Positions 58,285 through 60,379 of a DNA stretch of 64,000 nt are shown one piece after another. A program made the translations under genes and the position numbers. This stretch comes from Planctomycetota bacterium (GTDB lineage: Bacteria > Planctomycetota > Phycisphaerae > Phycisphaerales > UBA5793), in the NCBI GenBank assembly GCA_963205185.1, contig CAUJHZ010000067.1, positions 1 to 64,000 of the forward strand, read 5' to 3'. Numbering within the stretch: position 1 is the first letter of the stretch; each line of letters begins with the position of its first letter. The notes under the pieces were generated by a model. That model did not search any database and was not told where the DNA came from. It saw only the letters and a program-made list of their open reading frames with translations.

Positions 58285-59157
58285 TCAATTGCCCGCCGCG
58301 CTCGTGCGACCGCGGGCCGCTTCCCCCGTCGTCGCCGGCACGTCGCGCGGCGTGCCGGCGTAGAGGACGGCCAGGCCGATTAGGGCGAGGATGGTCATGT
58401 CGACGAACAGCAGCGGCGCGAAGACCGGGGCGCCGTAGATGAGCCGGGTCATCAGCGCCACATCGCGCTCGTCAAGGCCCGCGGCGACGTGAAGGTAGAA
58501 CCCGAGCAGGCCCACGAGCGCCCCGGCCACCATCACCAGCATGCACATGCCGATCTCGAAGCGCGTGAGACGCCGCACAAACGGGAGGATGAGAAACGCC
58601 ACTCCGAATGCGCCGGCGGCGACGGAGACCCATTCGACCTCGTAGAAGAAGCCGTTCTGCGCGTGATCGGTGACGCTGAAGGCGAAGTTGCCGATGTAGC
58701 CGCCCAGCGCCAGCAGGATGACCCACAGCGGCCAGTCGGGATCATCGGCATCGACCATGCGGTTCATGATGAGCAGCAGGCCCAGGCCGGTGTAGGCCAG
58801 CGGCGCGGCGAAGGGCGCCGAATAGACAAGGCTCTTGAGCGTGCGCGACTGGAAGAACGAACTCTCGAGGTGATACATCGCCCCGGCGATGCCCACGGCG
58901 ATGCACGCCCAGCCGACGAGGTGCCCCAGCACCGACCAGCCGAACATGCGGCCGCGCGCGTACATCCACAGCGCCGGCACGAGCAGCAGCGGCGCGCCCA
59001 AAGACAGTCCCAGCGGAATGTACTCCGCGTGATGGGCGAAGAAGTTCATCTGGTGCGCGAGATAGATGTCTGCCGCGAGCCCGGCGATATTGAGCAGCGC
59101 GAACAGTTCGACCCACACGCGGTGGTCGCGCAGCAGGCTACTGGTCCGGCGCTGCAT
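58285..59157 (-). CDS. Polytopic membrane protein, partner of the octaheme cytochrome
   Basis: 290 aa with about eight hydrophobic segments (for example VWVELFALLNIAGLAADIYLA and LGHLVGWACIAVGIAGAMYHL); contains no heme-binding CXXCH. It resembles no family I can name. Its start lies inside the 3' end of the octaheme cytochrome gene (20-base overlap) and GGAG sits 6 bases before the ATG, so the two are expressed together. An electron-transferring or anchoring subunit is inferred from position only. His residues within the helices could bind b-type heme, but this is not shown. Confidence 0.72.
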   Translation of the reverse strand: MQRRTSSLLRDHRVWVELFALLNIAGLAADIYLAHQMNFFAHHAEYIPLGLSLGAPLLLVPALWMYARGRMFGWSVLGHLVGWACIAVGIAGAMYHLESSFFQSRTLKSLVYSAPFAAPLAYTGLGLLLIMNRMVDADDPDWPLWVILLALGGYIGNFAFSVTDHAQNGFFYEVEWVSVAAGAFGVAFLILPFVRRLTRFEIGMCMLVMVAGALVGLLGFYLHVAAGLDERDVALMTRLIYGAPVFAPLLFVDMTILALIGLAVLYAGTPRDVPATTGEAARGRTSAAGN

Positions 59158-60379
59158 GTTCGCTCCGCAACTTCTTCGCCTCGTCTTCGATGCGCACGGC
59201 GTGTTCGAGAATGGGGTAGTTGCCGTGCCACTGCACGAAGTCGGCCCCGCCCATGAAGGCGCCGTGCTTGGCCGTGCGGCCGTAGTAGTGCCACAGGTCG
59301 AAATACTCAAACTCGATGGGATTGGTAAACGGCTCGCCGACGATGAGCCCTTCAGCCCGCAGCGCCTCCATCGTGGCCCGGACGGCGGCGATCTTCTTAT
59401 TGGTGGCCTCCACGACGGCGTCGCCCTGCTCGTACACGCGGTTCACGATGGTCTCGGTGTGGCAATGCATGCAGACGGCTTTCATCTCCTCGCGGGCCCG
59501 AGCCGCGCCCGGCCGCTCTTCGGTGATTTCGGCGAAGAGGTAATAGCCAAGCCGGTCCGAGGGGTCGTGGGTGACGGCCATGCCGTTGAGGCCGCTCATG
59601 TGGCAGGTGGCGCAGGTAGGCACGAACATGTCGCGCGTGGTGAGTTCATTGGGCGGGGCGCTGAGGTTGAGTTGATCGCGCTGGGCGTGGAACATCACGC
59701 CGTGCTTGCTCTCGGTGTAGATCTCGATCTGCGAGTGATCGGGCCCCATGTGGCACTGGCCGCAGGTGGAAGGCAGGCGGGCGACTTCGACGGATGACGT
59801 GTGGCGCGTGTGGCAGGCGGTGCAGGTGCCGATGGTGCCGTCCGCGTTGGGCTTGCCGACGGAATGGCACGAGGCACAGCCCGAGGCGATGGCCGCCTCG
59901 CCTTCGAGCGCCGCCAGGGCGTTGGGCGGGCGATCGACGGCGCCGGGATGGAATTTTTCGGCGTGGGCGATCTGCTCTGCAGTAAAGTCGCGCGCTCCGG
60001 ACACCGCCGCCCACGACGGCGCCGCGTGCCGGCTGCGCAGAAACTGCTGGTACTCCTGCTCGTGGCACGAGCGGCAGTTGGCGGCCGTCACATGCGGGTT
60101 GATCTCAAAGCCGTAGTGCTCCTGGGCACTCTGACCCTGCTGCGCGCTGTGGCAGTCGAGGCAGTTGACGTTCTTCTCCGCATGCACGCTCAGTTCGAAC
60201 TCGTGCACGATGGAGTACTGCGTGCGCGAGTGGCACTCGGCACACTTGCCCGTGGCGCGGACGAACTCGGGGCTGGGCTGCTTGGTCACCACGGCGGGAC
60301 GGAAGGAATTGATCATCACCACGAGGGTGATCAGCGTCGCGCCGATGATGACGGCCACGAAGACATTGGCGAACTTCAT
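59138..60379 (-). CDS. Octaheme cytochrome c, hydroxylamine-oxidoreductase-like
   Basis: 413 aa. N-terminal membrane anchor at 5-27, then eight CXXCH heme sites: Cys46, Cys73, Cys102, Cys168, Cys186, Cys206, Cys256, Cys303. The order, spacing and nearby motifs (HEQEYQQFLRSRHAA, GPDHSQIEIYTESKHG, CATCHMSGL followed by THDPSDR, YYGRTAKHGAFMGGADF...QWHG) match the octaheme HAO family. Heme 4 would be the catalytic site. The family oxidises hydroxylamine or hydrazine, or reduces nitrogen oxides, depending on the Tyr crosslink of heme P460; at the candidate Tyr position in GGADF the residue here is Phe. ATG 60379 follows GGAG at 6 bases. Confidence 0.9.
   Translation of the reverse strand: MKFANVFVAVIIGATLITLVVMINSFRPAVVTKQPSPEFVRATGKCAECHSRTQYSIVHEFELSVHAEKNVNCLDCHSAQQGQSAQEHYGFEINPHVTAANCRSCHEQEYQQFLRSRHAAPSWAAVSGARDFTAEQIAHAEKFHPGAVDRPPNALAALEGEAAIASGCASCHSVGKPNADGTIGTCTACHTRHTSSVEVARLPSTCGQCHMGPDHSQIEIYTESKHGVMFHAQRDQLNLSAPPNELTTRDMFVPTCATCHMSGLNGMAVTHDPSDRLGYYLFAEITEERPGAARAREEMKAVCMHCHTETIVNRVYEQGDAVVEATNKKIAAVRATMEALRAEGLIVGEPFTNPIEFEYFDLWHYYGRTAKHGAFMGGADFVQWHGNYPILEHAVRIEDEAKKLRSEHAAPDQ

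Follow-up and report, generated by a model that had tools for sequence, protein, structure and literature searches.

A conserved pair of an anchored HAO-like octaheme cytochrome and an eight-helix membrane protein, a candidate quinone-linked redox complex in Planctomycetota and other phyla

What might an HAO-like octaheme cytochrome and a polytopic membrane protein of no recognizable family do together, when their genes overlap in the genome of a planctomycete of the order Phycisphaerales? The question is raised by a locus in the window analyzed here, by which we mean the whole stretch of 64,000 nucleotides from contig CAUJHZ010000067.1, where the following features are found:

59138..60379, (-): octaheme c-type cytochrome of the HAO fold, 413 aa, eight CXXCH (PF13447; AF2 model compared with 4qo5)
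58285..59157, (-): polytopic membrane partner, 290 aa, eight transmembrane helices, duplicated four-helix module (AF2, hhalign)
59138..59157, (-): 20-base overlap of the two genes

For the octaheme protein, the initial annotation had proposed membership in the HAO family from eight CXXCH sites and the motifs GPDHSQ and THDPSDR, and the motif count, domain match, and fold all support this. The eight sites lie at residues 46, 73, 102, 168, 186, 206, 256, and 303 of what is the sole multi-CXXCH ORF within the window, and shuffled copies of the protein contain a mean of 0.04 CXXCH. Both GPDHSQ (212-217) and THDPSDR (270-276) are conserved, and the protein matches Pfam Multi-haem_cyto (PF13447) at 6e-28. 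The AF2 model (mean pLDDT 84) was compared with structures 4qo5, 6h5l, 1fgj, 4n4j, and 6hif; its best structural match is the Ignicoccus octaheme cytochrome IhOCC, 4qo5 (Foldseek E 4.5e-15; VIA Z 26.7, rmsd 2.5, 348 residues aligned), followed in Foldseek and VIA by HAOr, HAO (NeHAO), HOX, and HDH, with MccA and OcwA ranking lower. IhOCC, from Ignicoccus hospitalis, is the closest solved protein in both fold and C-terminal motif, although it differs in being archaeal and about 520 aa long, and it shares about 32% identity in the structural alignment. The protein thus combines eight c-heme motifs in HAO order, the HAO fold, and the D-H pair. Two other octaheme families were considered and rejected. 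The score against octaheme tetrathionate reductase (OTR, TIGR04315) is 15.5 bits versus a curated cut-off of 375 bits. The octaheme nitrite reductase ONR of the TvNiR type carries its active-site heme in a CXXCK motif among its eight hemes, whereas all eight motifs here are CXXCH, and the fold match reaches Z 10 versus 21-27.

For the active site, the relevant features are as follows:

59735..59740, (-): active-site pair D214-H215, aligned with D267-H268 of NeHAO (1fgj)
59216..59269, (-): C-terminal KHGAFMGGADFVQWHGNY motif, containing Q383 at the cross-link Tyr site
59231-59233, (-): Q383, at the site of the cross-link Tyr in oxidative HAO (alignment)

The D214-H215 pair is invariant across 51 octaheme orthologues. 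The initial annotation had rightly noticed the lack of a cross-link Tyr but had placed the site at GGADF, which is two residues off; in the alignment, the Tyr of NeHAO WTY467, HDH ATY, and HOX QTY falls on Q383 (ADFV-Q-WHG), two past F381, which is itself invariant in close orthologues and Tyr in divergent ones. Position 383 is Gln in 50 of the 51 orthologues and His in the other, and Gln also occupies it in all four divergent pairs (L084, L137, L138, and L152). Judged by this alignment, the equivalent of NeHAO Y467 is almost certainly absent, and its replacement by Q383 would leave the enzyme without the P460 signature. The comparison with HAO, hydrazine dehydrogenase, and reductive Hao that had been suggested at the outset therefore yields an HAO fold lacking the Tyr that marks P460 oxidative HAO, HDH, and HOX, and this combination is the one described for reductive HAO: HAO-like enzymes without the Tyr are regarded as reductive, and the oxidative forms are inferred to descend from a reductive enzyme bearing His at the cross-link site (PMC12758564, PMC2628731). 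One such enzyme, HAOr, produces NO from nitrite (PMC12485887). Partnerless HAO-like clades (L168-L172; L154, L155, L160, and L161) were also seen to have Gln (TQWHG) or Trp (AWWHG) at this site, so that the residue replacing Tyr differs between clades.

The octaheme protein also appears to be held at the membrane by its own N-terminus, as had been proposed from the start in place of a cleavable signal:

60305..60373, (-): N-terminal transmembrane anchor of the octaheme protein, residues 3-25 (AF2 helix; no consistent signal-peptidase site)

This hydrophobic helix is conserved in all orthologues (the Kyte-Doolittle 19-window minimum over 51 of them is 2.23) and is followed by an invariant R27-P28, while an AxA cleavage site is found in only 4 of the 51. 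Among partnerless HAO-like proteins, the N-terminal hydrophobic stretch mostly ends in a cleavable-type motif, and three (L164-L166) look anchored.

The partner gene, with GGAG directly upstream of its ATG, encodes a protein that is indeed polytopic, free of CXXCH, and unassignable, as the initial annotation had it: there is no Pfam or NCBIfam match, and when the protein and its 50-member alignment were compared with PDB sequences, Pfam, and NCBIfam, only chance matches were returned. Membership in NrfD/PsrC was rejected at the sequence level, as the Pfam families listed when 50 partner homologues were searched do not include NrfD. The AF2 model shows eight membrane helices at a mean pLDDT of 89.7, but it has no confident match to any PDB fold, including the NrfD/PsrC type; Foldseek returned no PDB match with E <0.2, which does not amount to a new fold. 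The comparison with the 8-helix protein 3dby, which we take to be a DUF2935-like protein, gives a borderline match, VIA Z 13.3 with 228 residues aligned, rmsd 4.6, and 8% identity, which is at chance level for helical bundles. The internal organization of the protein is clearer. Homology between its two halves is supported by hhalign (E 5.8e-14), with H35 pairing with H165, E45 with E175, and H96 with H223, and the partner is thus a tandem duplication of a 4-helix module. The K/R count places the N-terminus inside under the positive-inside rule (11.8 vs 3.6), and the four invariant His are accordingly predicted to end helices 1, 3, 5, and 7 on the periplasmic side:

59053..59055, (-): H35, invariant, end of helix 1, predicted periplasmic side
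58870..58872, (-): H96, invariant, end of helix 3, in GxxGxxxH
58663..58665, (-): H165, invariant, end of helix 5
58489..58491, (-): H223, invariant, end of helix 7, in GxxGxxxH

It is clear from our results that the two genes are conserved as a pair. A genome-contig scan recovered 80 octaheme orthologue loci (56-75% identity), of which 34 are from Acidobacteriota, 21 from Poribacteria, 16 from Planctomycetota, and 4 from Zixibacteria, with one each from KSB1, Neomarinimicrobiota, Bacteroidota, Myxococcota, and Oligoflexales, and in all 80, spanning about nine phyla, the partner gene is immediately downstream. The initial annotation had named absence of the partner beside orthologues as the observation that would count against the pair, and no such locus was found among the 80. 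In an independent sample of 150 genomes from the window's own class, 6/6 full-length partners adjoin 6/6 HAO genes of the pair clade, and in 151 genomes of an acidobacterial class, the partner occurs with the HAO gene in 5/5 cases, one pair being split by contig ends. The distance matrices of the two proteins correlate at r=0.81, as against at most 0.07 in 500 permutations, and HAO-like loci from other clades have the partner in 0/20. Conservation of the pair is thus, for practical purposes, certain. A tree of 47 proteins places the close pair-associated HAOs in one group (100/98), and with the divergent pairs L084, L137, L138, and L152 included, the pair-associated HAOs group weakly (90/53). 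No other gene family recurs at more than 8 of the 80 loci, and no conserved neighbor there points to a substrate. A literature search found no paper naming the pair, with subscription journals mostly beyond its reach.

The partner is not confined to this setting. When genomes were sampled across whole phyla (297 of Acidobacteriota and 294 of Planctomycetota), 21 full-length partner loci were found to adjoin an HAO-like octaheme gene, and the rest comprise four partner-homologue loci beside a GMC gene set, two orphans, and two half-length genes. The GMC-associated genes encode distant homologues (hhalign E 7e-12 over 223 columns) in operons of four acidobacterial genomes:

L120:5871-6818, L121:5924-6901, L122:5306-6262, and L123:5957-6907: distant 8-helix four-His homologues in GMC operons
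L085:3920-4390, L086:3905-4369, L087:3679-4167, L088:4032-4547, and L142:1393-1845: half-length partner relatives

In these operons, the homologue is accompanied by a thiamine-diphosphate (ThDP) enzyme, an enolase-superfamily enzyme, Gluconate_2-dh3 (PF13618), and a GMC oxidoreductase (PF05199, PF00732), as identified by Pfam on representative members. The distant homologues are thus encoded among genes of the gluconate 2-dehydrogenase type; the classical enzyme of that type uses a c-type cytochrome subunit, whereas no CXXCH or c-type cytochrome gene occurs in the 8-helix operon regions. All four His are invariant across both partner subfamilies, but E45 and E175 are not. That the protein keeps its four His beside two periplasmic redox enzymes unrelated to each other is most readily understood if it transfers electrons at the membrane, with quinone as its natural redox partner, and we consider the role of membrane electron-transfer module quite probable. 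The GMC oxidoreductase and gluconate dehydrogenase subunit 3 context also makes coupling of the pair to quinone more likely, and we rate this link as rather likely. Since the GxxGxxxH preceding H96 and H223 resembles heme-packing helices, the partner possibly binds heme b, although its His pairs could bind metal instead. Whether the 8-helix four-His protein represents an unrecognized class of quinone-reactive membrane subunit, recruited independently by octaheme HAO-like enzymes and GMC-type dehydrogenases and present in at least nine phyla, is in our estimation an evenly balanced question. The orphan full-length homologues come from two Acidobacteriota (L139:1423-2463 and L140:1420-2454) and have neither HAO nor GMC genes adjacent. 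The half-length relatives (about 155 aa, 4-helix) stand alone without an HAO gene nearby, and they are possibly of the unduplicated ancestor type.

The gene content of pair-bearing genomes bears on what the pair might be for. When 50 of them were searched for NirK, NarG, NrfA, and NapA, NirK exceeded its cut-off in 3, NarG in 1, and NrfA and NapA in none, with four weaker NapA-like matches below the cut-off. At least one genome is included twice (G023 = G460), which makes the count of distinct genomes slightly smaller than 50, and since many are MAGs, an absence carries limited weight. This near-absence argues against a link to ordinary nitrate or nitrite respiration, in that the pair does not accompany usual denitrification or ammonification genes, and it leaves the organism's own nitrite supply not evident. 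The initial annotation had suggested a reducing enzyme, and although the missing Tyr agrees with this, the scarcity of NarG, NrfA, and NirK leaves a role as nitrogen-oxide reductase no more than a proposal. The pair could be the sole nitrite, NO, or hydroxylamine reductase, serving in scavenging, or it could be something else; a scavenging role of this sort has been suggested for Phycisphaerae (PMC11266412).

Taken as a whole, the data are best explained if the pair forms a redox complex of two subunits that stands alone at the outer face of the cytoplasmic membrane, is linked to quinone, and is more likely reductive on nitrogen oxides, and we regard the chances of this complete picture as about equal either way. 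The HAO-like octaheme subunit would be tethered through its own N-terminal helix, and electrons would be exchanged between its c-hemes and the 8-helix subunit, which in turn would exchange them with the quinone pool. The cofactors would probably sit on the four periplasmic-side His, the simplest arrangement being one bis-His b-heme per 4-helix half. Given the missing P460 cross-link residue, electrons would more likely flow from quinol to nitrite, nitric oxide, or hydroxylamine, a reduction that would serve scavenging or detoxification and not a full respiration of nitrate.

The reductive direction on nitrogen oxides by itself is close to a coin toss. Against it, the GMC operon would send electrons into quinone, which is opposite to what quinol-driven reduction calls for. 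The octaheme protein may instead oxidize hydroxylamine or another small reductant without P460, with the 8-helix protein feeding the quinone pool. The company that the homologous module keeps with oxidizing systems (GMC oxidoreductase and gluconate dehydrogenase subunit 3) fits such oxidation, as do the lack of the common nitrate and nitrite reductases in pair-bearing genomes and the presence of several carriers in aerobic genera, namely Singulisphaera and Minicystis, with cultured carriers in Singulisphaera sp. GP187 and Minicystis rosea. However, Gln stands in place of the Tyr found in every oxidative HAO, HDH, and HOX examined, and since Tyr-less enzymes have been described as reductive (PMC12758564, PMC2628731), we find this oxidative reading rather unlikely.

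The scarcity of nitrogen-respiration genes, together with the lack of any conserved nitrogen gene nearby, would equally suit a substrate other than a nitrogen oxide, such as sulfite, tetrathionate, or an extracellular acceptor, with the HAO fold put to another reaction, and the related multiheme folds among the lower matches, MccA and OcwA, do act on sulfite or metals. The invariance of the HAO active-site D-H pair (D267-H268) and the fact that the nearest folds are all HAO-type make this improbable. More doubtful still is that the 8-helix protein has no redox function and acts on the octaheme protein only as a passive anchor, as a chaperone, or in its maturation. In favor of this, it matches no known cofactor-binding family, but four His that are invariant in two subfamilies with unrelated partners, and glycine-flanked like heme-packing helices, speak for a cofactor role, and a pure anchor is unneeded for an octaheme protein that has its own.

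Among known systems, the quinone-linked complex proposed here most resembles the hydroxylamine:ubiquinone redox module (HURM), for example that of Nautilia profundicola (reverse HAO with cM552, NrfH-type), in which a Tyr-less HAO-like octaheme protein is likewise proposed to reach quinone through a membrane partner (PMC2628731). That partner is a tetraheme c-type cytochrome of the NapC/NrfH family, whereas the one here has eight helices and neither CXXCH nor a Pfam or NCBIfam match, and the octaheme protein, unlike that of HURM, bears its own anchor. Judged by its working principle, the pair would amount to a version of HURM that is new in having the NapC/NrfH-type cytochrome replaced, and we do not count it among members for which the cM552 partner is the defining feature. 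The anammox proteins HAOr (Kustc0458/0457) and Kuste4574 are also HAO-like without the Tyr cross-link, and Kuste4574 is membrane-associated, but HAOr is soluble with Kustc0457 as redox partner, Kuste4574 belongs to a Rieske/cytochrome b complex, and an 8-helix four-His partner is not described there (PMC12485887). The planctomycete itself encodes a second HAO-like octaheme protein, 39% identical, on contig C7 (L083:5126-9703), where the operon runs from a tetraheme anchor protein through a ferredoxin-like FeS protein and an NrfD-like protein to the HAO-like octaheme protein. Both octaheme proteins lack the cross-link Tyr, but that of L083 has His at the site, a cleavable-type signal, and no 8-helix partner, and its operon gives this genome another, distinct membrane route for an enzyme of this kind.

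To our knowledge, only a few families are known to provide membrane routes between quinone and periplasmic redox enzymes (NapC/NrfH, NrfD, and cytochrome b types). Should the 8-helix protein prove quinone-reactive, it would add one more such module, serving two unrelated enzyme classes. In Phycisphaerae, octaheme genes retrieved by a Hao HMM currently receive the annotation of a putative nitrite reductase (Onr) (PMC11266412), and the pair can be used as a marker separating the present clade from genes so labeled. If the proposed complex is real, many soil, sponge-associated, and planctomycete bacteria without NirK, NrfA, or NarG would possess a membrane-coupled HAO-like enzyme.
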